From: a virus
DNA: 64,000 nt
Virus record (IMG/VR): IMGVR_UViG_3300032954_000011
Span: 1 to 64,000 of that record
Strand: one strand, 5' to 3'
Program-made: the position numbers and the translations under genes
In this document: piece after piece, positions 42,822 to 61,612 of the stretch
Layout: every line of letters starts with the position of its first letter
Position numbering within the stretch: the stretch's first letter is position 1
Notes under the pieces: model-generated
What the model was told of the DNA's origin: nothing
Seen by the model: the letters and a program-made list of their open reading frames with translations, nothing else
Database searches by the model: none

Positions 42822-43558
42822 AGCTCCAGAGCCTCCCAACTTTCCCGCAAATCCACCCCGGGGTCGCCCTGTAGGCGGCGCCGGCGCTCAAAAATCCTCT
42901 CCACCAACCGCCGCGCATCATCGTCGCGGTCGGCGTATCCGCGCGCAAACTCCTCTAGGTGTCGGAGTTCGAGTTGCGCCGGGAAGTCGTTGAGGCGGGC
43001 CGGGCGAAACGCAGCCAGCTTCGCCAACGTCAAGCAAACAAAGGCACTTAGCGGTCGGAACAACCAACTCGCCATCGCCCGGTACTCGTAATGGTTGTCG
43101 GCGCCGGAGGCCCGAACGTCCCCGAAGTGGCCGTAGCGCCCGCCATCGCGCCGGGCCTTCGATTCCGCTGAGGGGAGAATCTCTAAGTTTTCGAGGCTCA
43201 GGGTCAGCTTGTCGAGGGCGCCGGTTACGTGGTTCCGGTTCGCGGTGGCAATCGGCATACCGAGGTGAACGTGGCCGCCGAGCGTTAGTCCAGGCCCCGC
43301 GACCGCCCCAGCCTTCCAGCGGTATTCGCGGATGGCCTGCGTGGCCTCGCCGTTTAGCAGCCGCTTCATTTGCCGCACCAGCGAATAGGCCTTGAATTTT
43401 GGGGCGGGCCGTAACTCCACAACCCGCCCCCCGTGGTCCGAACCCACCTCACCGTGGACGTGAGGAAAAAAGCGCTCCACGTTGATGATTCCGTTTCGCG
43501 GCCCCAGAGCCACGAACTCCGGGTCACACCCCAGTTGAAATTTGTTCAAGTACGGCAC
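42818..43558 (-). CDS. Phage amidoligase (COOH-NH2 ligase-like), copy 1
   Basis: 246 residues. GCDPEFVAL (10-18), then HGEVGSDHGGRVVELRP, LTLGGHVHLG and HYEYRAMASW form the series seen in phage-type carboxylate-amine ligases of the glutamine-synthetase/GCS fold; the acidic and His residues bind metal-ATP. It would join an amine to a carboxylate. Two more copies lie at 46598 and 51470. It overlaps the sigma gene by 35 nt. Confidence 0.75.
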   Translation of the reverse strand: MPYLNKFQLGCDPEFVALGPRNGIINVERFFPHVHGEVGSDHGGRVVELRPAPKFKAYSLVRQMKRLLNGEATQAIREYRWKAGAVAGPGLTLGGHVHLGMPIATANRNHVTGALDKLTLSLENLEILPSAESKARRDGGRYGHFGDVRASGADNHYEYRAMASWLFRPLSAFVCLTLAKLAAFRPARLNDFPAQLELRHLEEFARGYADRDDDARRLVERIFERRRRLQGDPGVDLRESWEALEL

Positions 43559-44066
43559 GGATTTTCTCCCTCAGCTTTTTTAGGCGTTGGCTGAGCGCCT
43601 GTTCGGAAATTTTTAGCTCGGCCGCGAGTTGGCGTTGGCGGCCGTTTTTGCGCGCCGAACTCCCGGCATGCGCCAGTAACAAACTTTTCACCAGTTGCTG
43701 TTCGGCGGGTTCGAGGCGGTCAAGGAGCTTGAGCAAGAGGTCGGAGTCTTCGAGGGAGACAAACTTTGACTCAACCGCGAAATCTAGATGCTCCAAGGGA
43801 ACCTCAGCCCGCTGCTGTTGCTCGCGCAGAATATCCATGCAGGCATTGTGGGTGATACGATAGACCCAAGTTGAGAGGCGCGACTTCCCCTTAAAAGTGG
43901 GAAGCGCCAAAAGAATCTTCGTGGTGATGTCGGCGGCGATGTCGTCGTCGACGCGGTGGAGTTCGAACCAAACCCGAGAGCGAACCTTCTGGAAGATTTG
44001 ATTTCGCAAATCCCAGAGGTTGTCGTCGGTGGGGTTGGCTACCCAGGTTGCGTGCGCGGTGTTCAT
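43524..44066 (-). CDS. ECF-type RNA polymerase sigma factor
   Basis: 180 residues from the ATG at 44066 (ATGA overlap with the upstream stop). Residues 20-82 match sigma region 2, ending in KGKSRLSTWVYRITHNACMD, which includes the -10-binding helix. A short acidic linker follows, and residues 115-175 match region 4: LEPAEQQLVKSLLL and a helix-turn-helix, QLAAELKISEQALSQRLKKL. There is no region 1 or 3, as in ECF factors. It should direct host core polymerase to the four CGTCTAA promoters in this window. No anti-sigma gene was recognised. Confidence 0.85.
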   Translation of the reverse strand: MNTAHATWVANPTDDNLWDLRNQIFQKVRSRVWFELHRVDDDIAADITTKILLALPTFKGKSRLSTWVYRITHNACMDILREQQQRAEVPLEHLDFAVESKFVSLEDSDLLLKLLDRLEPAEQQLVKSLLLAHAGSSARKNGRQRQLAAELKISEQALSQRLKKLREKIRAVLEQISTGV

Positions 44067-44839
44067 CGCCAGACCACCCGCCAACCTTGGGGGAGTATGG
44101 GTTCGATTATAGGTTGACGTTCGGGTCGCTGCGGGATTGGTTGCGCCGCAGGGGGCGGAACCTCGGCCGCGCCAGCTGCGGGCATAAAGGCCGCATTCTG
44201 AATCACCTCAAAACCCGGGTCCGGAAACTGGGGGTCAACCGCAACGATACCCGGCGCTGCACCCCGGACAGCCTGTTGGGCTTCTAGGTTATACCAACCG
44301 GCCTGCGGCGCGAGCGGTGGTGCCTCGCGTTCGACAGCGGGGCGGGCGTTCGCAACTCGCCGTAGCTGTTCAACGGCCTCTTGTACACGGGGGTCTACCG
44401 GCAAAGGATTGGGGTCGGGCGGTCGGGGTCGCCGGGGCTGCCAAGCATACATCGCCATCTGCGGGACGCGCCGCTGCCGGTTCCCGTTCGCATTCCGCAC
44501 CCTGTCCGGCGTGTGCCCTATGAACTCTACATACTTATGCCACCAAAGGGAGCGCTTTAGGCGCACCCCCCGCAGCTCCCGGAACGCGTAAATATGCACC
44601 AACTCCCGCAAAACCGGGTGCCGCTGAACCGCATCCAGAACCGCGCGCCAATTCTTGACCTTTGTTCCCTCTAGTTGGTAGGCGGCGAGAAACTTCTTGA
44701 TGTCCGACCACCGGGTGTAGACGGCGCGGCGGCGTCGCATTACCACCCGCGCATCCCCGTTATCATCTCGCTCGATTTGCCGAACCGGGGCCTCCCCCGG
44801 ATTTTCGGCCAGCAAAATCAACCTCACCCTACTCGCCAT
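44063..44839 (-). CDS. Hypothetical Pro/Arg-rich protein of the amidoligase island
   Basis: 258 residues. A basic helical N-terminal half (residues 1-125, with RWSDIKKFLAAYQLEG and WWHKYVEFIGH) and a Pro/Ala/Arg-rich C-terminal half. It overlaps the ATP-grasp gene (11 nt) and the sigma gene (ATGA), so it is co-translated with both. Family unknown; it could be the protein acceptor of the island's modification, but that is only a suggestion. Confidence 0.6.
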   Translation of the reverse strand: MASRVRLILLAENPGEAPVRQIERDDNGDARVVMRRRRAVYTRWSDIKKFLAAYQLEGTKVKNWRAVLDAVQRHPVLRELVHIYAFRELRGVRLKRSLWWHKYVEFIGHTPDRVRNANGNRQRRVPQMAMYAWQPRRPRPPDPNPLPVDPRVQEAVEQLRRVANARPAVEREAPPLAPQAGWYNLEAQQAVRGAAPGIVAVDPQFPDPGFEVIQNAAFMPAAGAAEVPPPAAQPIPQRPERQPIIEPILPQGWRVVWR

Positions 44840-45569
44840 TGTCGCCCTTTCGCTTGGGGAAGTTGAGCTTCACCCAGTTTGCGATTTTGTCCGCGAGCGC
44901 CTGAATCACCTGCCGCCCGGGGCCCTCGACGCCGGGGGCCGAGTTGACCTCCAGCACGTAGCAGTGGCCATCGGTGCCGAGTAGCACGTCTACCGCGCCA
45001 AAGTCCAGCCCCAAAGCCTCGACAGCGCGACAGGCCAAATCAATGGATTCGCGGTTGAGGCGTTCGGCCGGGACGAGCTGGAACGCATATCCGTTCCGGT
45101 AGCTGCGCCCGAAACGCTTGGTGCCGAACCTCCGCACCTTGACCTTCTCGTAGCTGCCGAGGTGCCGGCGCCGATAGACGAACACCCGAAATTCGGTGCG
45201 GGACGGAACGATTTGGGTGAAGAAATCTTGTGTGGCAAGTCGGGCTGCGGCGAAATCTCGACAATAGCGAATATCGCGACCAGCGTGGTGGTGGAAGCGC
45301 CGCGACAGCACCGGGGGTCGCAGAGCCTGTAGGGCGCGGCTAAACGGAACGGTCCGCACCCCTGCCCCCGAAAGCGCCTCAAGTTCCTGAAACTTGTTCC
45401 GTCCCCCAACTCGGGCGTTGAGCGCCGGGAGTTTCCCCCCGTAGCGCACCCCATAGCTCACCACTGCCTGGGGATTCCCGCCGCCGAGCGCCAAACCCCT
45501 CTCGCGCAGCAAATCCGCCAACACCCGTCCGGTGGGGCGACTGCCCCGTGCGACCAAAAGTTGAATCAT
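44829..45569 (-). CDS. RimK-like ATP-grasp ligase
   Basis: 246 residues. SRTEFRVFVYRRRHLGSYEK and KVRRFGTKRF line the nucleotide site. FGAVDVLLGTDGHCYVLEVN, followed by SAPGVEG, is the metal-binding end of ATP-grasp enzymes. The fold activates a carboxylate as acyl phosphate and adds an amine. It lies between a glutamine amidotransferase and the sigma gene. The substrate is unknown; glutamate or another amino acid on a peptide is typical. Confidence 0.8.
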   Translation of the reverse strand: MIQLLVARGSRPTGRVLADLLRERGLALGGGNPQAVVSYGVRYGGKLPALNARVGGRNKFQELEALSGAGVRTVPFSRALQALRPPVLSRRFHHHAGRDIRYCRDFAAARLATQDFFTQIVPSRTEFRVFVYRRRHLGSYEKVKVRRFGTKRFGRSYRNGYAFQLVPAERLNRESIDLACRAVEALGLDFGAVDVLLGTDGHCYVLEVNSAPGVEGPGRQVIQALADKIANWVKLNFPKRKGDNGE

Positions 45570-45582
45570 CGGCGTTCTCCTG

Positions 45583-46584
45583 TTACTTCTTGCGAATCTT
45601 TGAGGCGTTAATCACGCCGGTCGCCAGGTTCGCCCCGCACTTAATACAATACCACCGATTCAGTGGGGTGTTGCGGTCGGCGAGCTTGAACAGAAACACC
45701 ACCCGACAATTCGGGTTTGGACAAAGCTGCCGCTCCTGGGGCATGCGTTCCTCGTTCACCTCAGTGTTGAAGCGGCGCTGACGCTCCTCGTAAAACTCAT
45801 GCACCCGCGTGTAGGTAGGTTGTGTAAACTGGTATGCGGTTTTGAAATCCGCATAATGTTCCAGGCCGTCGGGGCCGAAAATGTAGGCTTGGTCGTTCGC
45901 CATGGTGAGGTAGGCGAGGTCGAGTTTCTGTTGCTGAAACGGCAGGCCGTGTTGGTAAATCCATGGCCGCATGGCCTTGTGAATCAAGTGCTTTTCACTG
46001 GCGAACACCAGCTTTTCGCCGTTGTTGTAGGTGGCCATAACCACCGGCGAGCCGGAGCGCGCCAACAGCACGGTGTCCGGATACTTCTCGGAAATCGCGC
46101 ACATCGCCACTGAGCCCGAGACGCGATTCAGAGTGCGAACCGCCTTTAGAGTGAGGCCGTCCTGGGCCACGATGGCCCGCAAAATATCGGAGTCAGTCTC
46201 GGCCACCCTCTCTGCGTGCAGCTCCCGAAACAGAGTATCGTCATTGTGAATCACCCCGTTGTGGACCACCGCGTTGATTTCGTCCCACATTGGGTGGTTG
46301 TTGACGTTTTTGCGCGGCGAACCCTTGGTGGCTGCCCGGGTGTGCACCATCGCGAACCACGTGTGGTCGTCTAAATTGTCTTCTAGAAACTCGGTGTAGC
46401 TGGGCCGATTCACCAGCAGGTTTGCCGGGCAGTCCTCCTTGAGAACCTTGATGCCGTCGGCCCCATAGAGTGCGATACCGGTGGCGTCGTTTCCGCGATG
46501 CTCCAGCCCCAGCAGCAGCCCCCGAATCTGATACTCTTCGATGGGACCGCCTTTATACCGCCTGATTCCTCCAATTCCACACAT
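45583..46584 (-). CDS. Class II glutamine amidotransferase domain protein
   Basis: 333 residues from the ATG at 46584, chosen so that the catalytic Cys is residue 2 (MCGIGG) as the Ntn-hydrolase mechanism needs. GLEHRGNDATG, HTRAATKGSP, NHPMWD, VHNGVIHN and a DSDIL stretch complete the GATase II site, which releases ammonia from glutamine. A C-terminal zinc ribbon is present (CPNPNC...CIKCG). There is no synthase domain, so it probably supplies amino groups to the amidoligases beside it. Confidence 0.85.
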   Translation of the reverse strand: MCGIGGIRRYKGGPIEEYQIRGLLLGLEHRGNDATGIALYGADGIKVLKEDCPANLLVNRPSYTEFLEDNLDDHTWFAMVHTRAATKGSPRKNVNNHPMWDEINAVVHNGVIHNDDTLFRELHAERVAETDSDILRAIVAQDGLTLKAVRTLNRVSGSVAMCAISEKYPDTVLLARSGSPVVMATYNNGEKLVFASEKHLIHKAMRPWIYQHGLPFQQQKLDLAYLTMANDQAYIFGPDGLEHYADFKTAYQFTQPTYTRVHEFYEERQRRFNTEVNEERMPQERQLCPNPNCRVVFLFKLADRNTPLNRWYCIKCGANLATGVINASKIRKK

Positions 46585-46597
46585 TGGCCTCACCCCC

Positions 46598-48112
46598 TTA
46601 GATTTGAGCGATTATACTCCCATACAACTTTTTCGGCTCGACAGGGGGCTTCTTGGCCCACTCCGCCGCGGCCGCCTCGGTTTCGCTGCCCGCCTCCCAC
46701 AACGGCAGCAAACCCGAAGTCAAAACCTTTCTCACCCGCCCCACATACGGCCCTGCCAAAACCCCCTTGCCGAACAAAATCCCATTATAGTCGCCCCCGC
46801 TGCGCACCGCAACCTTCGCATGGTCGGTGAGCGTCTCGCTTAGAGCCTCGGGGAGTTTCGGGGCGCGCTTTGCCCAATAGGGACTCACGTAGACATAGTC
46901 CCCTTCACGTCCCACCGACAGCACCAGCTCCGCCCCCTCTAGGCCCACAATGCTCCAACACAGCTCTCCGATGCCCGGTTGGACGCGGGTATGGGTGCGG
47001 CGCATCAACGGGAAAAAGGGCGGCTTGGTCTGATGATAATACTTCCAGAAGCCCCACACGTTCCAGGGATTCGTGGGAATCGGTCGGGCCAATGACAGAT
47101 AATCAAAGAGTTGTTGGCGCTCGATTTCGCGCCCCGCAATCATATCCGGCACCACCAAACCTTTTGGGATTGGGGCAGCCACCAAAATCCGCTCCTTGAT
47201 AGAGCCGGCGCCCCCGATGCCCCAGGGAGTGCGAAAATCATTGGTATATTGGGGCGGCGGAAACCCATGAAGTTGAAGTCCCCGCAGTGCCAGCGCCGCA
47301 TCGTCGTCACGGCCCTTGAAGTAGGCCAGCAAATTGAGAATGGTTTGCTGCGCCACCCGCTGCGTCGCATCGAGCCGAACGGCCAGCGCCAGGTGCGGCT
47401 GCACCACCGCCAGCTTCGAGAGCACCAACGACACGTAGGCAGATAGCGGCGATGCCAACCAACTCGGGAACGAGCGGTATTCGTAGCCGTGGGCCTGGGC
47501 GCGAACGTCACCGCGGCGCCCGTAGGGCGTGGCGGAGGCTCGCGCAGCGGCCTCCTTTGCGTCGAAAACCCCCGCCGCACACATCAAAATCATCATGTTG
47601 TCGAGGGCCCGGACTTCATTGGGTTGGTCGTGTTTGCGCTTTCGCCCAAAGTGAACGTGCCCCCCAAGGCCGTCGTGGCCGTCGTAGGCCCCGCACCGCC
47701 AGTGAAACTTGAGGCACTCCGGGACAAACTCCGCCATGGCCCGCAGCTCGGCCAAAATACTCGCCACAGTATCAAGACAGAAGCGGCTTGCGGTGGGGCG
47801 CAGCTCGGCAATCCGCCCGCAGTTGTCGGCCCCAAACGCCAAGCCGGCTTGTAGGCCGCAGTTTTCAGCGTTTACTTTGTGGCCGTCGCTGTCGAAGAAA
47901 CTGAACTCTGGGTCGGCCCCCACCGCAAAGTGATTCAGGAGCCTCGGCGCTGCCGGAATCAGACTAAAGGCTTTGGGCTGCCAGAACTTCGCCTGCCACT
48001 CATCGAGCTGCTGACGGGGAACCTCCAACGGAGTTGAGAGCTTCGACCAATGGGGGACGCCCTCAACCGCCATGGCGAGGCGAAACGCGGATTTTTGCTC
48101 CTTAAAGCTCAT
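46598..48112 (-). CDS. Phage amidoligase (COOH-NH2 ligase-like), copy 2
   Basis: 504 residues. GADPEFSFF, FGADNCGRIAELRP, GLGGHVHFG and GYEYRSFPSWL mirror copy 1 motif for motif, with an extra ~200-residue C-terminal part that may hold a substrate-binding domain. The gene is the second in the island and overlaps its upstream neighbour by ATGA. Confidence 0.75.
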   Translation of the reverse strand: MSFKEQKSAFRLAMAVEGVPHWSKLSTPLEVPRQQLDEWQAKFWQPKAFSLIPAAPRLLNHFAVGADPEFSFFDSDGHKVNAENCGLQAGLAFGADNCGRIAELRPTASRFCLDTVASILAELRAMAEFVPECLKFHWRCGAYDGHDGLGGHVHFGRKRKHDQPNEVRALDNMMILMCAAGVFDAKEAAARASATPYGRRGDVRAQAHGYEYRSFPSWLASPLSAYVSLVLSKLAVVQPHLALAVRLDATQRVAQQTILNLLAYFKGRDDDAALALRGLQLHGFPPPQYTNDFRTPWGIGGAGSIKERILVAAPIPKGLVVPDMIAGREIERQQLFDYLSLARPIPTNPWNVWGFWKYYHQTKPPFFPLMRRTHTRVQPGIGELCWSIVGLEGAELVLSVGREGDYVYVSPYWAKRAPKLPEALSETLTDHAKVAVRSGGDYNGILFGKGVLAGPYVGRVRKVLTSGLLPLWEAGSETEAAAAEWAKKPPVEPKKLYGSIIAQI

Positions 48113-48606
48113 GGATGTGTCTCAATCGGAACAGCTTTATAGTAGGCGAGGTGCGTCACAGCATCGCGCCCAAACCCGAAACTCGTTTTGAGGCCCCGGG
48201 TTGGATAGAGACCATTTAGAAGGCCCCGGTCACTTAAATCCGGGTGATAAATCTCACGCAGCGGCCCTATCCACGATTTGTTGGGCAGGCTTCCCGGCAA
48301 GCCAAACTGCTTGCCCGACGGAATCCAGCCCAAGCACCGAATGTCGACAAGATTTTTCCGGTCGATTTCGGCGGCGATGTAGGAGCCAATCCGCCCACGA
48401 ATACAACGGTCAAGCCCAGAGTAGGCGAGATTTTGGGGCGGTTTGCCAAAGTAGGTCTGGTATTGGCGAAGTTGGCCTTTTGGCGCAACCTCCCAAATCA
48501 ATACCAGTCGCGTGGGGTATTTGCCCGGAAAGGGGCAGGGCTCGGGGTCGCGCCGGTGCGGGCCACAAACAATTTTTAGGGCTTCCTGGAGAGTCCAGTG
48601 TTTCAC
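48109..48606 (-). CDS. Hypothetical protein, first gene of the amidoligase island
   Basis: 165 residues, alpha/beta with many Arg/Gly/Tyr residues; the middle has GLDRCIRGRIGSYIAAEIDR. The ATG overlaps the upstream stop. No family recognised. A gamma-glutamyl-type or GIY-like fold was considered but no signature residues are present. Confidence 0.55.
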   Translation of the reverse strand: MKHWTLQEALKIVCGPHRRDPEPCPFPGKYPTRLVLIWEVAPKGQLRQYQTYFGKPPQNLAYSGLDRCIRGRIGSYIAAEIDRKNLVDIRCLGWIPSGKQFGLPGSLPNKSWIGPLREIYHPDLSDRGLLNGLYPTRGLKTSFGFGRDAVTHLAYYKAVPIETHP

Positions 48607-49569: not shown

Positions 49570-49570
49570 C

Positions 49571-49762: not shown

Positions 49763-49784
49763 TCTCGCGCTCCCCCGCTCAAAA

Positions 49785-51104: not shown

Positions 51105-51488
51105 CTAGCACATCGCTAGGATATTCAAGCGTCTCCAGTAGTCGGGTGTGTCGAATTCCGGCTCCGACTGGTCCGCTTGTGTCTGCTGGCAAGGCGAGCA
51201 TGTTCGTGTCCCCCTTCGATGGTCAATAATGGTGTAGCCGTCGCGGCGGGTTATGTTTGTAGGAACCGGCATCGCTGGGGTGCGCGGTGGCATTTTTCGG
51301 TGCGCAAAGCACCTTAAGGCCCCCTCACAGACCCACCCGCCCGGGCGCCCACAAAAACAGGTTTCCCCCTCTACCACTCGCCCCGAACCCCCGCACACAT
51401 GACAAACGGGGTCCAGGAGTTGGGCGAGTTCGTTTACGCACTGGCGCCCCCGGCAGGCCGGGCACAAAGTTAGGTGCAAATCGTCCAT
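51105..51488 (-). CDS. DnaJ-type zinc-finger-like hypothetical protein
   Basis: 127 residues. LTLCPACRGRQCV, then VCHVCGGSGRVV and CFC/CSPC pairs resemble DnaJ-type CxxCxGxG repeats, though with fewer repeats than DnaJ. No J domain. It overlaps the amidoligase copy 3 by 19 nt. Confidence 0.6.
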   Translation of the reverse strand: MDDLHLTLCPACRGRQCVNELAQLLDPVCHVCGGSGRVVEGETCFCGRPGGWVCEGALRCFAHRKMPPRTPAMPVPTNITRRDGYTIIDHRRGTRTCSPCQQTQADQSEPEFDTPDYWRRLNILAMC

Positions 51489-52696
51489 GCGAGTCTCCGC
51501 CCTTGGTCACAGTAGAGGTTGTGTGCACCGTAAAGCTGCCAGTTTGTGGCGATGGCTTTGGGGTCACGCACCACGGTTTCGAGTCCGTAGAGGCCGGTGT
51601 TGTAGGCTTTCTCGGCGTGCCGCTCAGTCCATACCGCCGAAGCCTGCCCCATTGTCCGGACAAACATCCCGTGGTTGCGCTGCAAAATCTCCCGCGCCCT
51701 TTTTACGTCGCAGTGGTTGATGGTCTCCACCACCTCCAGGGGCTCGGCTTGCCACAGCCGCCACAGCTTCGAGGCCCCCAACATCGCACACATCCGGGCC
51801 ATGTCGAACACACAGTGCGCCAACCAGGGGGCGCGCAGCCAAAAATTCGAGAGCGTTCGGTATTCCAGGCCGTGGGTGGGGAGGCGGAATTCGCCTGCCC
51901 GCCCATAGTATCGCCGCCTCACTGGGGAGTCGAAGTTCGCGGCCGCCCCAACCGCCCAGACGCTGAGAATCGCATCGAGCGCAAAAACCATATCGTGGCG
52001 GGTGCGCACCGGGTGCGCGGTGGCGAGGTGTACGTGGCCCCCCGCGAACCGTTGCAGAAGCTTCGAGCCGTCCGTAACCGGCTCGCCTGGCATGTCGTAG
52101 AGGTTTAGGCTGGGGTCGCACCCCAGCATTTGGAATTCCGGGGGCGCCGACGCCATCAATTCCGGGGGAATCTCCACCACGCTGTCCGCCGACAGCGTGG
52201 CTGTGGGGTCGAGGTCGCGGGCGGTGGCCAAGATTTCATTCAGCCCATCAGCGATGTGGCTGACAAGAACCTCATTGCAGCCGAAGCCCGTTTCAGGGGT
52301 GTATTCGGCCTGAAAGCCGTCGGCGAAGATGGTTCCGGAATAGAAGCGATAAGGCGTCTTGTCGATGCGGCGGGGGTTGGCCTTCCCGGGCAGAAACCTC
52401 CAAGCCGGCAGCAGGGCGCCGGTCCCGCTGCGCAAAAAGATTTCCGGGTCGGAGCCGGTGGTGGGGTAGCCCCCTCTGTTCGGCGAGGGCTTTTGAAGCA
52501 CCGCGCGGAGCGCAACGGCGTCGGCAGTGATTCGTTCGAGGTCCGTTCGGGTTGGTTCGGCGGGGGTCATTTGGCCGGCGAACTTTTGCGACGGCCATAC
52601 GTCCCAGCCGCGGGGGGTCTGGGTGAGAAAAGTCCCACAGTCGTTCCCCATTTCGATAACCAGGCCCTGTTTGGTCTGTAGCCATTCGTTGTGCAC
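51470..52696 (-). CDS. Phage amidoligase-like protein, copy 3
   Basis: 408 residues from the GTG at 52696, which has GGAGG 8 nt upstream. It contains GSDPEIFL near residue 67 and again LGCDPSLNLYDMPGEP near 205, then AGGHVHLAT and GLEYRTLSNFW, the motif set of copies 1 and 2 but more divergent. It may have a duplicated or inactive N-terminal domain. It lies outside the main island, among small Zn-ribbon genes. Confidence 0.65.
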   Translation of the reverse strand: MHNEWLQTKQGLVIEMGNDCGTFLTQTPRGWDVWPSQKFAGQMTPAEPTRTDLERITADAVALRAVLQKPSPNRGGYPTTGSDPEIFLRSGTGALLPAWRFLPGKANPRRIDKTPYRFYSGTIFADGFQAEYTPETGFGCNEVLVSHIADGLNEILATARDLDPTATLSADSVVEIPPELMASAPPEFQMLGCDPSLNLYDMPGEPVTDGSKLLQRFAGGHVHLATAHPVRTRHDMVFALDAILSVWAVGAAANFDSPVRRRYYGRAGEFRLPTHGLEYRTLSNFWLRAPWLAHCVFDMARMCAMLGASKLWRLWQAEPLEVVETINHCDVKRAREILQRNHGMFVRTMGQASAVWTERHAEKAYNTGLYGLETVVRDPKAIATNWQLYGAHNLYCDQGRRLAWTICT

Positions 52697-53125: not shown

Positions 53126-53166
53126 AAAGGGTGGGCGAACTTTTTTCAACTTTTTTCGACCTTTTG

Positions 53167-53197
53167 CTTAAGTTTTCGTTGCGCCGAACGTCTAAAG
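53167..53197 (+). promoter_or_regulatory. ECF-sigma-like promoter directed antisense to early genes
   Basis: CTTAAGTTTTC (53167-53177), 11 nt, CGTCTAAAG (53189-53197), pointing right in a region where genes point left. A hairpin CTAAAGCC-TATGAA-GGCTTTAG follows at the expected transcript start. The transcript would run antisense to genes from 53258 on. No convincing rightward CDS follows. Confidence 0.75.
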
Positions 53198-53257
53198 CCT
53201 ATGAAGGCTTTAGTCCATGGGGGCGGGTTTTTGGTGCCGCTGTTGATTCTAAAGGGG

Positions 53258-53446
53258 TTAGTCGAGCGGATAGCTTGGGGCGTCGGCCGTGCCCTTGTGC
53301 ATGCGTTCCCAAGCACCAGGTGGACACCTTGGACAAGTCCCTTTGTAGGGCGCCTTTACGGGGGCGCCGCAGTATGGGCAGCGAAATTTTGTCCGGCGAG
53401 GCCGCCGCATGCGCCGCATACCGCCCACAGCCATTAGCATACTCAT
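53258..53446 (-). CDS. Tiny zinc-ribbon protein
   Basis: 62 residues with a basic N-terminus. RCPYCGAPVKAPYKGTCPRC gives a standard rubredoxin-like zinc ribbon. The ATG follows the upstream stop by 1 nt. An internal ATG at residue 10 is an alternative start. Confidence 0.6.
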   Translation of the reverse strand: MSMLMAVGGMRRMRRPRRTKFRCPYCGAPVKAPYKGTCPRCPPGAWERMHKGTADAPSYPLD

Positions 53447-53447: not shown

Positions 53448-53666
53448 TCAGTCCTTGTCGGCCCAGAGATGCAGTTCTGGGCCTTTTTCTTTACTCTGGA
53501 GTTCGACCGCCCATAGGGGGCTAGTTCCCCCCACGAAAATCTCTGTGTCGGCAGAAATCTGACCCAGGGCTAGCGCCTGTTGGAGCGCGATTAGCACGCG
53601 GCCAACGGTGAGTGGGAGGCCGCTGGCAAGGTGCTGGCGCGGTTCGAGTTTGGGGGTTTCGCTCAC
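53448..53666 (-). CDS. Hypothetical protein
   Basis: 72 residues, mixed alpha/beta (VGRVLIALQQALALGQISAD). Sits 1 nt from its downstream and upstream neighbours. No family recognised. Confidence 0.6.
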   Translation of the reverse strand: MSETPKLEPRQHLASGLPLTVGRVLIALQQALALGQISADTEIFVGGTSPLWAVELQSKEKGPELHLWADKD

Positions 53667-54618: not shown

Positions 54619-54627
54619 AAAACCTCC

Positions 54628-54852: not shown

Positions 54853-54861
54853 TTCAGCCCC

Positions 54862-56130: not shown

Positions 56131-56306
56131 TTGCCCTTCTCCTTGAGGCGCTTGTCTAGCCCCGGGCTGCAAACCCGACAGTAGGTGCAGCGTCCCGTGC
56201 CCACGAATTCGCCCTGCTCATCAAGCTCAAAGTCATTCTGGTCGGGGCCATGAGAGTTGTGGGCGAGCGAGTGCCCACAGTGGCCGCAAGTTTCGTCTGC
56301 GCGCAT
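56127..56306 (-). CDS. Small zinc-ribbon protein
   Basis: 59 residues; ATGA overlap with the SLOG gene. TCGHCGHSLAH, then CTYCRVCSPG makes two Cys pairs. Acidic between them. Confidence 0.6.
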   Translation of the reverse strand: MRADETCGHCGHSLAHNSHGPDQNDFELDEQGEFVGTGRCTYCRVCSPGLDKRLKEKGK

Positions 56307-56315
56307 CCCAACCCC

Positions 56316-56387
56316 CTATTTGTGCATGTGGCGCAGGAAGTAAAGCACCACCAGCGCCGCATCCACTATCCGATGAATAAGTTCCAT
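56316..56387 (-). CDS. Tiny hydrophobic peptide
   Basis: 23 residues with a GGGAG site. ELIHRIVDAALVVLYFL is hydrophobic. It fills the gap between the 36- and 59-residue genes. Real but of unknown function. Confidence 0.4.
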   Translation of the reverse strand: MELIHRIVDAALVVLYFLRHMHK

Positions 56388-56388
56388 T

Positions 56389-56499
56389 TCAGTCTCCCTT
56401 CAAGAGTTCTCGAATTCGGGCCGCCTCCCGCGACACACCTAGTCGGCGGTCGAGGCGGTTTGCGAGCTTCCGGAGAAAGCGGCGCTGTTTGCGGCTCAC
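56389..56499 (-). CDS. Tiny basic helical protein
   Basis: 36 residues from a GTG overlapping the lipoprotein stop (GTGA). Very Arg-rich (RKQRRFLRKLANRLDRRLG). A nucleic-acid-binding peptide is possible. Confidence 0.45.
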   Translation of the reverse strand: MSRKQRRFLRKLANRLDRRLGVSREAARIRELLKGD

Positions 56500-56840
56500 T
56501 CCTGCACCGCCTGGTCAATGGTCACGTTGGGCCACGGACCAAACCGCGGTTGGTCCTGGTAGCCGTGGTCGGTTACCAGTATGCGCCCATGAAAGCCCTT
56601 CCACACCGGCAGTGGCCCATAAACATCGTAGGTCCACCACATGGGGCCGTGGTCCTGGTGGAACAGAAACGAATAACAGGGGCCAACCCTCCCCCATTGG
56701 CTGTCGCACCGGAGGTCGAATTGTACGTCGAGCACCGTGCCGCGGGCGCCCCAATGTGTGGGTTTCGCGGGGGGCGGGTCGCACGCGAGGGCCAGCGCCG
56801 CCAATGCTGCGAGAATTGCTGCGGAAAGTTTGCGTTTCAC
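56496..56840 (-). CDS. Putative phage lipoprotein
   Basis: 114 residues from the GTG at 56840, with GGAGGTG 8-14 nt upstream. The signal segment VKRKLSAAILAALAALALAC ends in a lipobox LALA-C at residue 20, followed by Asp (typical of an inner-membrane-retained lipoprotein). The mature part is beta-rich with several His/Trp/Tyr. Superinfection exclusion or adsorption blocking is typical of phage lipoproteins, but no family match is claimed. Confidence 0.65.
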   Translation of the reverse strand: MKRKLSAAILAALAALALACDPPPAKPTHWGARGTVLDVQFDLRCDSQWGRVGPCYSFLFHQDHGPMWWTYDVYGPLPVWKGFHGRILVTDHGYQDQPRFGPWPNVTIDQAVQE

Positions 56841-57079
56841 AGGAATTTCACCTCCACCAGAATTGAGCGTCGCACGGTCACAGGTACAAGTTCGCCCTGA
56901 TTCGGCCCTTCGTGGCCCGCATTGAGGCGCCGCGCCACAGTTACAAATCTGCCCCGCGGAAAACACCCCCGCGAACAGTGCCACGTTCCGAGATTCGAGC
57001 CGGATTTGCGCGCCGGTGCCCCGCAGTGCCCACAACGGTATTCGCGTGGGCGGGCGCGGCCGTAGAATTTGTCGCTCAT
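56837..57079 (-). CDS. Zinc-ribbon hypothetical protein
   Basis: 80 residues. YRCGHCGAPARK and WHCSRGC form a zinc ribbon in the N-terminal half; the C-terminal half is beta-like. GTGA overlap with the lipoprotein gene. Confidence 0.6.
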   Translation of the reverse strand: MSDKFYGRARPREYRCGHCGAPARKSGSNLGTWHCSRGCFPRGRFVTVARRLNAGHEGPNQGELVPVTVRRSILVEVKFL

Positions 57080-57450
57080 TTTGCCGCCCTCAAAGCCTTC
57101 AGTTTCCCCGGCCCCACGCGGGCCTGCATCAGAAAAGAGTTCCAGATTGCGCGGCGAGCCTCAGCTTGTTCGCGCCCCCCGGCAAACATCAACCGCACGG
57201 CCTTCGCAAAGGCAATCTTCCGGCCCTTCCAGCGCACAAACTGGTCGCGCGCCGAACAATAGCTGTGGGCGCCCACCGAGGCACCAATCGGCAGGAACAC
57301 CGGCTTCGACTGCTCGGTGCGAGGCGCCACCTCCACCAGCTCACAAAACACCATCCCCAACACTGGGTGCCCGTTAATCTCGAAGGGTTGGCCCGGACGA
57401 TAGCGGAAATACGCCTGAATTGTGCGTCCCTGAGAATCTTTGAGAATCAT
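57076..57450 (-). CDS. Hypothetical protein
   Basis: 124 residues from the ATG at 57450, chosen because GGGAGG lies upstream and the ATGA overlap links it to the membrane gene. A beta-rich N-terminus (ILKDSQGRTIQAYFRYR) and an Arg/Ala-rich helical end. No family recognised. Confidence 0.6.
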   Translation of the reverse strand: MILKDSQGRTIQAYFRYRPGQPFEINGHPVLGMVFCELVEVAPRTEQSKPVFLPIGASVGAHSYCSARDQFVRWKGRKIAFAKAVRLMFAGGREQAEARRAIWNSFLMQARVGPGKLKALRAAK

Positions 57451-57626
57451 TCGCGCCTCCCTCGGCTCAGAATCCACAGCCAAATCAACGAAAAGGTTGC
57501 GAGCATCGCGCCAGCCGAGCGTACCGCCGGCCTGGGCGCACACACCATCGCCATGCCGATAGCCGCTGCGACACAGGCCGCGGTCATCAGCCAAATCACC
57601 GAGTCGTCTTCGAGTTTGATGGCCAT
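57447..57626 (-). CDS. Tiny two-pass membrane protein
   Basis: 59 residues with two hydrophobic helices (about 11-29 and 39-53) and short polar ends. Located in the early region, it may alter the host membrane or act as a holin-like peptide. The function is unknown. Confidence 0.55.
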   Translation of the reverse strand: MAIKLEDDSVIWLMTAACVAAAIGMAMVCAPRPAVRSAGAMLATFSLIWLWILSRGRRE

Positions 57627-57633
57627 TTAGAGG

Positions 57634-58200
57634 CTAACCTCCCACGGTCGCCGCTTTCGCCGCCTTCTCAGCCCGGCGGCGCTGACAAAGTTCCTGCCAC
57701 GCCCTTAGCTCCTCCCCTTCTAATACATCGTCGGGGTCGCTTTGTGTCGCGTAGCTGCTTTCTGCGAACGCATCCGAACTGGCGCTCTTTATCGCCCGGA
57801 ACGCAAAGAAAACCCTGCTGTTGGCCTGCTTGATGCGGGGCCGGTCAGGGGGCGCGGTTGCCTTGGCGTCGCGCTGCTCTTTCTTGGCCTCACCCAAATC
57901 CTGCATAAGCTGGGCGGTGCGAAGCAATTTCCCCTTGCAGGTGCCCCGCAGCCTCTCGATGAACTGTTGGAGTTTAAGCGCCCGGAACCCACGCCCCGGA
58001 ACCGCCGCAATTAGGCGCAGTTCCTGTAAAAGTTTCTGTTCGCGCTCCGGGTGGAGTTGAATGTGCGCAATCAGATATTCCAGCGCATCAATCGGGGCGC
58101 GCTCGATTAGGCTGCCCGCCACCATGCGACTCACCGCCGAATCAATCGTGTCGAGAATAAACTTGCATTTCGTCAGCTCGTTGCGATTAAAGAGTGGCAC
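57634..58200 (-). CDS. Hypothetical coiled-coil-rich protein
   Basis: 188 residues from a GTG with GGGGGAC upstream. Helical throughout: an N-terminal helical part (1-80), and a long charged helix near 85-120 (DLGEAKKEQRDAKATA). No family recognised. It is one of the larger early genes, a candidate host-takeover protein. Confidence 0.6.
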   Translation of the reverse strand: MPLFNRNELTKCKFILDTIDSAVSRMVAGSLIERAPIDALEYLIAHIQLHPEREQKLLQELRLIAAVPGRGFRALKLQQFIERLRGTCKGKLLRTAQLMQDLGEAKKEQRDAKATAPPDRPRIKQANSRVFFAFRAIKSASSDAFAESSYATQSDPDDVLEGEELRAWQELCQRRRAEKAAKAATVGG

Positions 58201-58333
58201 TTTGTCCCCCTTTCATCGAAAGGTGAGCGCAGCGTACAGCGGTGGGATGCGCCGCGAATGTTAGTGTGCGCTGTGTGCGACCCGGAATCGCCTTGGGCGC
58301 CGCGTTCGCTTTGCTTTGCCGCTGCCAGTCCAT
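58187..58333 (-). CDS. Possible small basic protein
   Basis: 48 residues from the ATG at 58333, which has GAGGTGA upstream and follows the repeat at 58347-58378. It overlaps the next gene by 14 nt. Sequence rich in Arg/Ala/Thr. Low certainty. Confidence 0.35.
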   Translation of the reverse strand: MDWQRQSKANAAPKAIPGRTQRTLTFAAHPTAVRCAHLSMKGGQSATL

Positions 58334-58346
58334 GCGCTCACCTCTC

Positions 58347-58378
58347 GCAGTTCCAGAACTCGCCGGGTTCTCGCGTGC
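58347..58378 (-). repeat. 32-nt early leader repeat, copy 5
   Basis: Divergent member of the 32-nt family: the CGCGA...CCCGG...GTTCTGG core is kept but the end differs. It starts directly after the stop of the upstream gene and precedes the small gene at 58333. Confidence 0.65.
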
Positions 58379-58546
58379 CTAACCCTTTACCGCCTTGAGT
58401 CCCGACCGCGGGATGTCGAGAATGATGTCGCGGCCCCCATTGGCGGCTCCGTAGGCGCCGCGCAGCCGTTCGCGCTCCTGGCGGTCTTCGGGCTTGTCGC
58501 TGAAATAGAGTTCCTGATAACGGTCAAGCATCTCCTGCCTGGTCAT
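58379..58546 (-). CDS. Tiny helical protein
   Basis: 55 residues from the ATG at 58546 (AAAGGAGG upstream, ATGA overlap). TRQEMLDRYQELYFSDKPED shows an acidic helical N-terminus. No family recognised. Confidence 0.6.
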   Translation of the reverse strand: MTRQEMLDRYQELYFSDKPEDRQERERLRGAYGAANGGRDIILDIPRSGLKAVKG

Positions 58547-58719
58547 AGGCTTTCGCCTCCTTTGATTGGTTGATGCATTCGTGGGTAAGCGACTACCCAC
58601 AGAATATCGCTTCCTTCGCCGTGGTCGGTGAAGCGCACCACATGCTTGATGCCCTGGGCACGCAACGCCTTCCACCGGGCATCTCGTTCGGCACGCCGCA
58701 AAAAGGTTTCTCGAATCAT
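58543..58719 (-). CDS. Small hypothetical protein
   Basis: 58 residues, helix then strands (RETFLRRAERDARWKALRAQ and HVVRFTDHGEGSD). ATGA overlaps on both ends. No family recognised. Confidence 0.6.
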   Translation of the reverse strand: MIRETFLRRAERDARWKALRAQGIKHVVRFTDHGEGSDILWVVAYPRMHQPIKGGESL

Positions 58720-58964
58720 AGAATTGGAAGCCGATTGTCGATGGCTCTGTCCGCTACGTTTTCGTTCGGCCCGCCAGCAGGCCGAAATCCCATAACCCGG
58801 CCATCCGCCCCGATAAGCAAAGTCCCCAACACCCCGCTCGGTAGCGGTTCCCCATTCGCATCAAAACAGCGAAGGCGAATTTCACGTTCGCTGTGGCGCT
58901 GTAACTTCACCACGATGTCGGCGCCTGGCTGCCGCGGTCTTTCCATCGCAAGTCGAATTGCCAT
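58716..58964 (-). CDS. Small hypothetical protein
   Basis: 82 residues from the ATG at 58964, with GGAGGAGA upstream. Beta-type with ADIVVKLQRHSEREIRLRCF and GVLGTLLIGADGRVMGF. No family recognised. Confidence 0.6.
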   Translation of the reverse strand: MAIRLAMERPRQPGADIVVKLQRHSEREIRLRCFDANGEPLPSGVLGTLLIGADGRVMGFRPAGGPNENVADRAIDNRLPIL

Positions 58965-59103
58965 GAACTTTTCTCCTCCAGAGCCGCCAAGCCGCCGGGG
59001 CGAACGCTTTGGAGGCATTCGCCCTGGGGCTTCGTTGCTCTGCGAAACGCCTGTCCACCATCGTGGGGGTCATCGCCCCATCGCGATGCGGCGTTAGGCA
59101 AGT

Positions 59104-59220
59104 TTAGTCGGCGTCGCCTTCGCGACCCTGGCCCTCAATGGGTTCCGCCCCCACGGGCGCCTCGCCGTCGGGACCGCCTTCGTCTTCGCCCAGAAACGCC
59201 AGCCACGGTTTGTTCAGCAT
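59104..59220 (-). CDS. Tiny acidic protein
   Basis: 38 residues from an ATG with AAGGAG 9 nt upstream. Very rich in Gly, Asp and Glu (GEDEGGPDGEAPVGAEP), a DNA-mimic-like composition. A host-factor inhibitor is conceivable but unsupported. Hairpins with GGCGAA/TTCGCC arms lie on both sides (about 59001-59027 and 59247-59271). Confidence 0.5.
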   Translation of the reverse strand: MLNKPWLAFLGEDEGGPDGEAPVGAEPIEGQGREGDAD

Positions 59221-59367
59221 CTGTGCTCTCCTTGTTGAGATTAGGCGAACGTAGCCTCACATTCGCCCCCAACAACTACGGGTGCCCTAGGTCTATACCA
59301 GCCCCTGTGCCGTCGGAACGGCCATTGAGCGGAAAGCCGCCCAAATCACCGATGAGCACCCAAACTC

Positions 59368-59673
59368 TTAGACCAGCCCCCCGGAAATCTCCCCCCGAGA
59401 GCGGGCCAAACTCTCCCGCCACGCATTATGGGCGGCGCGGAAACTCTCAAACTGCCTTACGATGTTAACTAAGTCCGTACACATGAGGCAAACTTTGTTG
59501 GTGCCCACGATACCAATGCCACAGAAAAAGCACTGTCTGTCGGCGCTGGCCTGTTGGAGGTCTGCCTCCACGCAGTTGCGTCGTATCATCTCCCGAACAC
59601 GGCGCTGTTGGGCGCTAGGGGACAGCGCATTGAATTCGCACTGTGCCTCATAGGTGGAGAATCGCACTATCAT
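59368..59673 (-). CDS. Small zinc-ribbon protein
   Basis: 101 residues. A helical N-terminus with YEAQCEFNAL and CVEAD, then CFFCGIGIVGTNKVCLMC, a clear zinc ribbon, and a helical C-terminus. ATG at 59673 with ATGA overlap. The function is unknown. Confidence 0.6.
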   Translation of the reverse strand: MIVRFSTYEAQCEFNALSPSAQQRRVREMIRRNCVEADLQQASADRQCFFCGIGIVGTNKVCLMCTDLVNIVRQFESFRAAHNAWRESLARSRGEISGGLV

Positions 59674-59870
59674 GCGTCACCCACCCCATAAATCCCTACG
59701 GCCCGAAACTCAGCCCCACACTCGCGCCCATTGGCGGCCGTCCACATAATCTTTAGGTCGCCCCTGGCGGTAAGCACAGCGCGACAAGAGCCGATTACCG
59801 CCGGAAGCATATGCCCTTTCGCCGCGATTTCAGCGACCAATGTGCTGAGGTCTGAGTGCTTGTCCCTCAT
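59670..59870 (-). CDS. Small hypothetical protein
   Basis: 66 residues, alpha/beta. ATGA overlaps on both sides. No family recognised. Confidence 0.6.
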   Translation of the reverse strand: MRDKHSDLSTLVAEIAAKGHMLPAVIGSCRAVLTARGDLKIMWTAANGRECGAEFRAVGIYGVGDA

Positions 59871-60220
59871 GCGAATTCCCCCAAGCGCATAATCGCCGCA
59901 TCAATGGCGTCCGGGTAGAACGCCGGCAGCACCTTGTATGCCTGAAACATTGTCCGCATCGCCACAGTGTCCAGCACCGTTGCGATAACGTGTTGGCGGA
60001 GTTCCCGTTGTTCGCGCACCGTCCACACAATGCCGGGACGCTGCGCGACGAATCTGTCCCGTATCACCGTAACGCACCTGCGTCCCATGCGGCGTGCGTA
60101 CCCTTGTTGGGTTTTGGCGGTGGCTCTCGCCAAGCGCGCTTGCCACTGGTGGCGCCTCTCCACTACAGGCGACCTGTCGGCATCGCGCAGCGGGACCACT
60201 CGACACCTGCTGTCGGTCAT
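59867..60220 (-). CDS. Basic hypothetical protein
   Basis: 117 residues from the ATG at 60220. Very Arg-rich (RARRMGRRC-type segments), with a C-terminal helical part. Possibly nucleic-acid-binding. It is directly downstream of repeat copy 1. Confidence 0.6.
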   Translation of the reverse strand: MTDSRCRVVPLRDADRSPVVERRHQWQARLARATAKTQQGYARRMGRRCVTVIRDRFVAQRPGIVWTVREQRELRQHVIATVLDTVAMRTMFQAYKVLPAFYPDAIDAAIMRLGEFA

Positions 60221-60264
60221 AGCCAACCTACCTTTCTCGCCGCGAACGGCGATGGTTTGTGCAG

Positions 60265-60296
60265 CGCCAACCAGAACTGACCGGGCTGTCGCGCGT
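60265..60296 (-). repeat. 32-nt early leader repeat, copy 1
   Basis: Leftward it matches A-CGCGCGA-CAG-CCCGG-TC-AGTTCTGG-TTGGCG. It lies between the terminator of the upstream gene and the ATG at 60220. Confidence 0.8.
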
Positions 60297-60307
60297 CTTA
60301 AAGAGTA

Positions 60308-60335
60308 GGGAGAGGGGCGAGCCGCCCCCCTCCCC
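60308..60335 (-). terminator. Terminator-like hairpin after the 60343-60717 gene
   Basis: GGGGAGGGGGGCG and CGCCCCTCTCCC pair closely on the leftward strand, followed by TACTCTTT. The stem is GC-rich and the tail moderately T-rich, consistent with a Rho-independent terminator or attenuator. Confidence 0.6.
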
Positions 60336-60342
60336 GTGGAGG

Positions 60343-60717
60343 TTACTTCGTGGCCTGCATCGCCGTGGCCTTTGCCCCGGCAATCTTTTCCGCCTCAGCC
60401 TGAGAGTAGCCCACGGCCATCAGACTCTCGACCGCGGTGTTCTGGCGGACTTCCACGTACTCCTCCGCCGGAACGATGTAGTTGTCGTTGAACGAGATGC
60501 TCACCGAACGGTTGGCCTTGGCGGGCTTCCCATTGAGCACCGTGTCCACCCCGGTCAGTGTGAACCCAATGGCGTGGGTGGTCGCCGTCGGATTCCCCTT
60601 CTCCGAAGTCTTGAAGTGGAAGTCCTCCACCTTCAAAGCCTTCGACATTTGCTGCACCAGACTCAACAGAGTCGCCTTCGACGCTGCCGAAATCCGATGG
60701 TTCGTCGGATTTGCCAC
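60343..60717 (-). CDS. Hypothetical early protein
   Basis: 124 residues from the GTG at 60717 with a GAGGAG site. An N-terminal helix (ASKATLLSLVQQMSKALKV) leads into beta strands and a C-terminal UBA-like helix (AVESLMAVGYSQAEAEKI). The function is unknown. It is one of the first genes in the leftward early block, with its own terminator-like end. Confidence 0.65.
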   Translation of the reverse strand: MANPTNHRISAASKATLLSLVQQMSKALKVEDFHFKTSEKGNPTATTHAIGFTLTGVDTVLNGKPAKANRSVSISFNDNYIVPAEEYVEVRQNTAVESLMAVGYSQAEAEKIAGAKATAMQATK

Positions 60718-60778
60718 TGTTGTCTCCTCTTCCAGTGTCCTGCCGCTCTTGGCCTCCGGTGTTCGGTGGCTGTTGCGG

Positions 60779-60810
60779 CGCTCACCAGAACTTGCCAGGG
60801 TCTCGCGCGT
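60779..60810 (-). repeat. 32-nt early leader repeat, copy 2
   Basis: Leftward it matches A-CGCGCGA-GAC-CCTGG-CA-AGTTCTGG-TGAGCG. It follows the terminator at 60821-60843 and precedes the gene starting at 60717. Confidence 0.8.
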
Positions 60811-60820
60811 TTTAAGAGAA

Positions 60821-60843
60821 GGGGGACAGTGTGGCTGTCCCCC
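60821..60843 (-). terminator. Terminator-like hairpin between early genes
   Basis: GGGGGACAG and CTGTCCCCC form a perfect 9-bp stem around a 5-nt loop; the leftward strand continues TTCTCTT. The geometry is that of a Rho-independent terminator. Confidence 0.7.
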
Positions 60844-60850
60844 CTTGGTG

Positions 60851-61036
60851 CTAGGCAATCTCCAGAGCCGCTTCGGTCAGCACCAGCGTGTTGAACGTCC
60901 CGGCCAGATGCTGGTACATCCACTCCACAGGATTATCCTCCTGCCCGGGGTCAAGGTCTGTGCGCTGTAAGCGCCTCAGAATCCTCACACCCAACCGAGC
61001 GCCTTCGATTTGCTCGTCCCATTCGTTTTCCGGCAT
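60851..61036 (-). CDS. Small hypothetical early protein
   Basis: 61 residues from the ATG at 61036 with GGAGG upstream. A DPGQEDNPVEWMYQHLAG stretch in the middle and a C-terminal helix. No family recognised. Confidence 0.65.
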   Translation of the reverse strand: MPENEWDEQIEGARLGVRILRRLQRTDLDPGQEDNPVEWMYQHLAGTFNTLVLTEAALEIA

Positions 61037-61047
61037 TGTGCCCTCCA

Positions 61048-61079
61048 CGCCGACCAGAACCTTCCGGGTGGTCGCGCGC
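61048..61079 (-). repeat. 32-nt early leader repeat, copy 3
   Basis: Leftward it matches G-CGCGCGA-CCA-CCCGG-AA-GGTTCTGG-TCGGCG and directly precedes the GGAGG of the next gene. Just upstream a GGGGAG/CTCCCC hairpin (61092-61116) closes the previous gene. Confidence 0.8.
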
Positions 61080-61091
61080 CTCATAGGTATC

Positions 61092-61116
61092 AGGGGAGGG
61101 TGTAACCCGCTCCCCT
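61092..61116 (-). terminator. Hairpin after the first early gene
   Basis: AGGGGAG pairs with CTCCCCT around an 11-nt loop. A weak T-rich tail follows leftward. Likely an attenuator. Confidence 0.45.
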
Positions 61117-61122
61117 TCCGTG

Positions 61123-61287
61123 CTACTGCTTGTCACTCCGCTGCGAACAGAATACCCGCAAGTCGTTGGCACGCTTGATGGTAGCAGAACCCATCGCCAC
61201 CGTGCCAGCGTCCCAATGGGGACAATGCTTGAGATGAAAGCCAGTCTGTAGGCACTGCCTACAGGGGGCTTCCGGGGTGCTTTGCAT
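61123..61287 (-). CDS. Small Cys-rich early protein, first gene of the leftward block
   Basis: 54 residues from the ATG at 61287 with GGAGGTAA upstream. CRQCLQTGFHLKHCPHW near the N-terminus is a zinc-knuckle-like motif. It is the first leftward gene downstream of repeat copy 4 and probably very early. Confidence 0.6.
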   Translation of the reverse strand: MQSTPEAPCRQCLQTGFHLKHCPHWDAGTVAMGSATIKRANDLRVFCSQRSDKQ

Positions 61288-61299
61288 GGCCGTTACCTC

Positions 61300-61331
61300 C
61301 GCCCACCAGAACCCGCCGGGCCATCGCGCGC
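61300..61331 (-). repeat. 32-nt early leader repeat, copy 4
   Basis: Leftward it matches G-CGCGCGA-TGG-CCCGG-CG-GGTTCTGG-TGGGCG. It is the right-most copy, ahead of the first early gene. A TACAAT hexamer, possibly a host-type -10, lies immediately beyond it (61332-61337). Confidence 0.8.
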
Positions 61332-61581
61332 ATTGTAAGCGTAACCTAGCATTACAGTTAGGATACTGGCTGTTAACTCTGCTAAGGCGTTTAATTTAAG
61401 CTTCCCCCCGGGGGGTGGGGTGTGATCGAGTTCTCGGGTCCGCGCCCACAGATGTATATATTTTGAAATAGGGCACATAAAGTGTGTTTCTGCGCGGCTA
61501 AGTGCTTGCAGGAGACTCACTTACGGGTCCCATCTGAGCCGGGGCCCCCTGATCGGCGGCGAAAATATTTTTTCAAATCTG
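61332..61581. other. AT-richer intergenic region between divergent blocks; candidate early promoter zone
   Basis: No CDS is visible. It contains a CCCCCC/GGGGGG palindrome (61405-61416), TATATA near 61453, and -10-like hexamers on the leftward strand. It separates the rightward sigma-type promoter from the leftward early genes and is the likeliest place for the host-polymerase early promoter, possibly with an operator. Confidence 0.35.
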
Positions 61582-61612
61582 CTTAAGTTTTCCCTTTTTC
61601 AACCGTCTAAAG
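61582..61612 (+). promoter_or_regulatory. ECF-sigma-like promoter, late (terminase/structural) block
   Basis: CTTAAGTTTTC (61582-61592), 11 nt, CGTCTAAAG (61604-61612), preceded by an AT-rich tract. Its direction and position fit transcription of terminase and the structural genes. Identical boxes and spacing to the other three copies. Confidence 0.85.

Follow-up and report, generated by a model that had tools for sequence, protein, structure and literature searches.

The stretch of DNA considered here, termed the window, comprises positions 1 to 64,000 of a virus contig in IMG/VR (IMGVR_UViG_3300032954_000011; record length 65,756 bases). It carries a gene for a sigma factor of the extracytoplasmic function (ECF) type and four copies of a 31 nt bipartite motif with the layout of an ECF promoter. 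Genes in the window were called with a simple codon-usage script. The principal features are as follows.

43524–44066, minus strand: phage ECF-type sigma gene, 180 amino acids, ATG at 44066, alternative TTG at 44084
37754–37784, minus strand: site 1, predicted sigma-dependent promoter, 45 nt before a DUF669-like gene that resembles genes for single-stranded DNA-binding protein (SSB)
41265–41295, minus strand: site 2, predicted sigma-dependent promoter within an operon, overlapping the stop codon of 41291–42190, the preceding gene
53167–53197, plus strand: site 3, predicted sigma-dependent promoter that opposes the flanking early genes
61582–61612, plus strand: site 4, predicted to be a late promoter of the terminase and structural operon

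The sigma factor

A preliminary description, made from the letters of the window alone, placed a two-domain sigma factor at 43524–44066. The coordinates stand and the minus strand, which was left out, has been added. Family models, PDB profiles and the predicted fold confirm the product as a two-domain ECF-type sigma factor, with region 2 at residues ∼14–90, a linker at 93–102 and region 4 at ∼105–178. The NCBIfam sigma70-ECF model TIGR02937 gives 60.3 bits against a cut-off of 42.9 (residues 28–177) and Pfam Sigma70_r2 gives 30.6 bits; the profile search proposed as a check on the protein thus matches both sigma regions. A PDB search with a profile of 19 relatives finds Escherichia coli sigma-E as best match over both domains (1.3e-15), and also SigW, CnrH and SigH.

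The predicted model (mean pLDDT 87.7) displays a helical region 2, the linker at low confidence and region 4. Its top Foldseek matches are ECF sigmas (6koo, 6jcx, 5uxx, 1or7), with modest E-values. Whole-chain TM scores are ∼0.35–0.45 and region 2 alone superposes at 2.5–3 Å; the low whole-chain value in the model probably reflects a differing orientation of the domains. The protein has the characteristics of ECF group IV: region 2 is followed by region 4, neither a region 1.1 nor a region 3 domain is found in the 180 residues, the size lies within ∼160–220 amino acids and the fold is nearest to ECF sigmas. The gene is flanked by those for a COOH.NH2 ligase and a 258-amino-acid protein without family, and no adjacent anti-sigma gene was recognised; such a neighbour is common among ECF sigmas, though not universal.

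The motif in the window

The motif, CTTAAGTTTTC-N11-CGTCTAAAG, is present in four exact copies with no mismatch in any of them, and consists of a -35 box CTTAAG, a spacer of 16 nt and a -10 box CGTCTAAAG. No extra copy appears in the window when up to three mismatches are allowed, none in 100 dinucleotide shuffles of the sequence, none in the remainder of the 65,756-base record and none with a reversed-pattern control. An unguided dyad search of the non-coding DNA, to which the motif was not supplied, returned the same four sites. An A/T tract lies 10–25 nt upstream of every copy. Most of what had been described beforehand has therefore held on a search of the whole record: the motif, its four positions, the T-rich tract and a single G-to-C change, which is real, ahead of the -35 box of site 2. 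The statement that all copies lie at operon starts or in a gap needs correction, as site 2 is inside an operon and site 3 runs against its flanking genes.

Related contigs

Direct searches yielded no relatives. The single sigma protein as query found no match in cultured phages or IMG/VR, the exact motif was not found in IMG/VR, and neither near-identical DNA nor a match to a 2001-amino-acid protein of the window was found in cultured phages. A search with the DNA polymerase, followed by polymerase and terminase alignments, produced dozens of related IMG/VR contigs. The large terminase subunit (TerL) has <30% identity throughout to cultured phages among the matches listed, and these searches point to a clade for which no close cultured relative was found. 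A comparison of the terminase with GTDB genomes gave no hint of the host. Contig G003 (L008) was dropped, as it has only distant replication proteins in common.

A hidden Markov model of the sigma matches 23 of the 38 related contigs tested. Of 21 contigs read completely or for the greater part, 20 carry a member of the sigma family, one of them (G014) doubtful; the single contig without it, G033, is truncated. Synteny with the window is seen in contigs G001 and G002, the latter also having its sigma gene at the same position, adjoining the ligase gene.

The doubtful case, G014 (IMGVR_UViG_3300043256_000189), has a sigma region 2-like stretch at residues ∼548–694 of a giant protein of 2370 amino acids (35636–42748, plus strand). 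Other members have giant proteins to which the C-terminal part of this one is related. The stretch scores 74 bits with a model that had included it and a weak 20.9 bits with independent family models; such a region 2-like stretch is also noted at L188:17277–17717. An injected sigma would be remarkable if true, and is unproven.

The structural module resembles that of phiEco32/SU10-type podoviruses, with an N4-gp56 capsid protein, an SU10 portal and phiEco32-type COOH.NH2 ligases. The capsid family recalls phage N4, which has single-subunit RNA polymerases, and the 2001-amino-acid protein of the window is unassigned, so that the motif could be the promoter of such a phage-encoded polymerase. 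This is very improbable: the large proteins tested match no RNA polymerase family and the two-box spacing suits recognition by a sigma. A search with PF00940 was also empty, which counts for little since its control stayed silent.

Predicted private promoters at shared loci

About 13 phages carry a bipartite motif of their own at shared loci, that is, before the terminase operon, the DUF669/SSB-like gene or a small conserved gene, or closely following the sigma gene. The search of related contigs envisaged in the preliminary description thus finds diverged motifs of the same geometry at orthologous genes. The motifs include the following.

G002: TGTAAC-17-CGTCTWATA (TGTAAT before the terminase), at the terminase, the DUF669-like gene and the copy of the 105-amino-acid gene, the counterparts of sites 4, 1 and 2
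G018: GGTACC-16-CGTCTAAT, at four positions, a counterpart for each window site, the antisense one included
G017: GTTACC-16-GGTCTAAA, six sites
G038: GAAATA-16-[C/G]ATCTAAT, five sites
G021: TGACAC-16-CGTATAAT, three sites
G034: GTCAGA-16-AGACTAAT, three sites
G025: GCGAAC-17-AGTCTAAC, three sites
G037: two sites

The score of the shared motif at orthologous genes is higher than that of any of 20 shuffles in seven genomes (score/best shuffle: G000 107/65, G002 101/56, G017 85/45, G018 98/45, G034 89/48, G037 49/36, G038 89/59). The same orthologous-upstream search did not rise above the best shuffle in G001, G004, G005, G006, G009, G012, G013, G015, G020, G025 and G026, and in G021 it only tied with the best shuffle, with an unrelated pattern. 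The motifs of G004, G006, G012, G020, G021 and G025 come from wider searches and are weaker. In the interval 350–1250 nt before terL, CGTCTAAT is found 14 times at the TerL loci against 0.47 expected (P 2e-16).

That the motif would be the promoter of this sigma is much strengthened by the orthologous sigma genes of the relatives and the diverged motifs located with them. A different reader may be considered. Geometry and -10 box fit bacterial ECF promoters generally, and a host ECF sigma, or sigma-70 with a phage activator, could in principle read the motifs while the phage sigma serves another purpose; G021, with a -10 of GTATAAT, would suit such a scheme. Against it, the motif varies by phage at the same genes, as would follow from a reader that changed from phage to phage, nearly all well-covered contigs in the clade have the sigma gene, the -10 is mostly GTCTAAT rather than TATAAT, and sites on the strand of the phage sigma all lie downstream of it. 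Reading by a host sigma is accordingly judged unlikely.

A fixed -10 and a variable -35

Fifty sites were aligned, the -35 hexamers by eye on spacing, which adds some uncertainty. The consensus is a -35 box, ∼16 nt and [C/G/A]GTCTAAT, with a spacer of 16 nt at almost every site. The layout typical of ECF promoters, a -35 box and a CGTC/TCTAA-type -10 separated by ∼16 nt, is thereby present in sequence at the four window sites and at 50 in the clade. Within the -10, identity is 84–96% at six of the eight positions (G, T, C, T, A, A). An A/T-rich block just upstream of the -35, with its peak at offsets -44 to -27 from the -10, is as expected of an UP element.

Comparison between phages gives 2.4 differing positions out of 8 for the -10 octamers (random, 6) and 4.0 out of 6 for the -35 hexamers (random, 4.5); from phage to phage the -35 therefore varies almost freely. 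Within a single phage the box is identical or nearly so from site to site, examples of such private boxes being CTTAAG, TGTAAC, GTTACC, GGTACC and GAAATA. There is about an even chance that the whole clade directs its middle and late genes with ECF-type sigmas whose reading of the -10 (GTCTAAT) is locked, and that their reading of the -35 has been rewritten in almost every lineage together with all the promoters of that lineage. This would give mutually orthogonal sigma-promoter sets, perhaps selected against the use of late genes by co-infecting relatives.

The motifs are long and nearly identical, and inverted repeats follow sites 3 and 4, features that would also suit the binding site of another phage DNA-binding protein (an operator, an activator box or a replication or packaging site) with no promoter. 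The strict orientation of the motifs, mostly close before start codons, their bipartite -35/16/-10 layout with an upstream A/T tract, and the preservation of that layout in relatives despite a changed -35 speak against a site of this kind, which is held to be somewhat less probable still than reading by a host sigma.

The sites and their predicted targets

Features associated with the four sites are listed here.

37795–37803, minus strand: A/T tract GAAATTTTT upstream of site 1, UP-element-like
37236–37709, minus strand: target of site 1, DUF669-family (SSB-like) protein, 157 amino acids
33902–36343, minus strand: uracil-DNA glycosylase/DNA polymerase A fusion, downstream of site 1
41303–41313, minus strand: A/T tract GATTTATTTCT upstream of site 2
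40928–41245, minus strand: first target of site 2, small conserved protein, 105 amino acids, WxDSxxxGW
53140–53165, plus strand: T-rich tract upstream of site 3
53460–53483, plus strand: intrinsic terminator downstream of site 3, 9 bp stem, T tail, -16.8 kcal/mol
53258–53446, minus strand: small zinc-ribbon-like open reading frame (CPYC...CPRC), predicted to be opposed by the site 3 transcript
61561–61578, plus strand: A/T tract GAAAATATTTTTTCAAAT upstream of site 4
61613–61637, plus strand: perfect inverted repeat of 9 bp (CTTATGAAG/CTTCATAAG) where the site 4 transcript is predicted to start, immediately 5′ of the ribosome-binding site, z -1.9
61810–62247, plus strand: probable small terminase subunit (TerS), first conserved late gene past site 4, preceding terL
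62367–63878, plus strand: TerL (PHROG 2, 9.5e-30)

Orthologous counterparts of site 1 are found in G002, G018, G034 and G038. The DUF669 model matches three of six members of the target family (best 5.4e-4), and the window's own member gives no significant DUF669 match. Downstream, the glycosylase of the fusion protein is a family 4 uracil-DNA glycosylase, and its fusion with DNA polymerase A is conserved clade-wide. A tRNA-Asn (GTT) gene at 37923–37998 lies just upstream of site 1, between the AAA_24 and DUF669-like genes; besides this tRNA, no Rfam element was found. Site 2 has counterparts in G002, G017, G018, G034, G037 and G038, and its first target is followed by phosphoesterase, PD-(D/E)XK nuclease and AAA_24 genes.

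The transcript of site 3 was considered as an 8 kb antisense RNA; this was dropped in view of the terminator at 53460–53483. Stems of lesser quality than this one are common by chance in the region. More likely, to judge from the sequence, site 3 would give a ∼290 nt antisense RNA or a peptide, ending at the terminator. An open reading frame (53201–53437) opens at the predicted start of the transcript, and a site in G018 (21087, minus strand) has the same attitude, antisense to the end of 20801–21064. The role of site 3 may be gene silencing, a peptide or something else.

Upstream of terS/terL, the position of site 4, a motif is found in ∼13 related contigs, and the TerS family is present in 20 of the 21 contigs read. 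The sequence ATGAA(G) often occurs where the transcript is predicted to start, ∼11–13 nt past the first base of the -10 box (window 61613–61637 and 53199–53220; L153, L159, L090). Several genes begin at such an ATGAA(G), and leaderless mRNAs or short leader peptides are possible.

Gene order and a proposed cascade

Early and replication genes of the window run leftward. Late genes run rightward from site 4, with the terminase at 62367 and structural genes at 1–29 kb if the ends join. The sites on the strand of the sigma gene number 22 in 12 genomes and without exception lie downstream of it, at distances of 32 bases to 14 kb, the contig ends being counted as joined for three sites in two contigs. 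This arrangement fits a cascade that begins with an early sigma.

In the proposed scheme, host polymerase would transcribe the leftward early genes, the sigma gene included. The sigma would then bind host core polymerase and direct it to the four bipartite promoters. Sites 1 and 2, downstream of the sigma gene on the same strand, would switch on replication/recombination (middle) genes, site 4 would switch on the rightward terminase and structural (late) operon, and site 3 would drive a short transcript antisense to a small early gene. The targets assigned beforehand are largely retained: sites 1, 2 and 4 are indeed followed by replication, recombination and late genes, and site 3 does not fit that assignment.

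The sequences support the sigma protein, the sites, their conserved position and geometry in relatives, and the gene order; core binding, recognition of the motif by this sigma, the start sites and the timing are inferred. Very probably, then, a phage ECF-type sigma made early by host polymerase redirects host core polymerase to middle and late operons.

Several observations count against this scheme or its extension to the clade. The -10 of G021 also resembles that of sigma-70. The motifs of G004, G006, G012 and G020 are supported by one to three copies apiece, the candidate motif of G026 is unconfirmed (the patterns of G001 and G026 matched no sites), and no motif was found in G005, G013 and G015. 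Some TerL loci are near-copies, and the independent events are nearer ten. Distances between -35 boxes do not correlate with distances between sigma regions 4 (Mantel r 0.02, p 0.43, n=13), and co-evolution of the two is therefore without statistical demonstration. Finally, promoters computed for Salmonella phage 7-11 (PMC4331800) were not borne out by experiment (PMC8948821); such predictions can therefore fail.

Other repeats and gene clusters

Three phiEco32-type COOH.NH2 ligases, an ATP-grasp protein and a glutamine amidotransferase-like protein cluster around the sigma gene (42818–48112, 51470–52696), and the cluster is conserved in most relatives. A second repeat, CGCGA-N11-GTTCTGG, has five intergenic copies in the early region, on the minus strand between 58352 and 61328 (58375, 60293, 60807, 61076, 61328), and is perhaps an early regulatory element. 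Phage-specific intergenic repeats on both strands of G002 (eight copies, AGGGG-N11-CTGATG), G012 (nine) and G037 (six) are perhaps terminators.

Comparison with known systems

That a phage sigma can drive middle and late genes has been proven for phages phiEco32 and 7-11 (PMC8948821). The sigma of 7-11, SaPh711_gp47, has been shown in vivo as well as in vitro to use promoters of the form GTAAtg-16-aCTA, which precede late genes (PMC8948821). The earlier remark that few phages have ECF-type sigma factors must be qualified by these two, as 7-11 gp47 also passes TIGR02937 (54.8 bits). An hhalign comparison of gp47 with the present family gives a probability of 94% with 17% identity over 124 columns, which may reflect only the shared ECF fold; on sequence, the two are plausibly related. 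Both systems have a phage sigma with ECF-type domains, host core polymerase (by prediction here) and bipartite promoters before late genes, such promoters standing before the terminase operon at site 4 and its counterparts. The G002 motif, GTAATG/GTAACA-N16-CGTCTWAT, is strikingly similar to the 7-11 promoter. The window differs in belonging to another phage clade, in its -35 of CTTAAG, in having middle as well as late genes as targets and in its -10 of GTCTAAT, the CTA of which lies ∼2 nt further from the -35.

Phage phiEco32 encodes the sigma gp36 and the anti-sigma gp79 (PMC8948821). The gp36 protein is reported to be without homology to region 4 and to use a single-element promoter, tAATGTAtA (PMC8948821). 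With hhalign, it shows no detectable relationship to the present family (probability 12.6%, 34 columns), and the window sites are bipartite, unlike that single element. The likeness to phiEco32 lies in the predicted use of a phage sigma for middle and late genes, and in the SU10-type portal, N4-gp56 capsid protein and COOH.NH2 ligases. With bacterial ECF sigmas (E. coli sigma-E, Mycobacterium tuberculosis SigH, Bacillus subtilis SigW) are shared the sigma2–sigma4 plan, fold and size, and the -35/∼16/-10 layout with a CGTC-type -10. The present sigma differs from them in being phage-encoded, in having its sites at phage operons and in the lack of a recognised anti-sigma gene beside it. The strategy is thus known from phiEco32 and 7-11; what is new is the clade, the ECF-type bipartite promoters, and the fixed -10 with a private -35.

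Significance

Few phages are known to encode sigmas that take over host polymerase, and with a single genome to work from it is difficult to predict the promoters of such a sigma. In the present clade, position by itself pairs ∼13 diverged sigma genes with promoter sets, and for about seven of these pairs the statistical support is strong. The pairs make it testable how an ECF sigma shifts its -35 specificity along with all its promoters, and why the -10 stays. As transcription parts they are candidates for orthogonal use, and they allow early, middle and late genes to be predicted for a clade without a close cultured relative.

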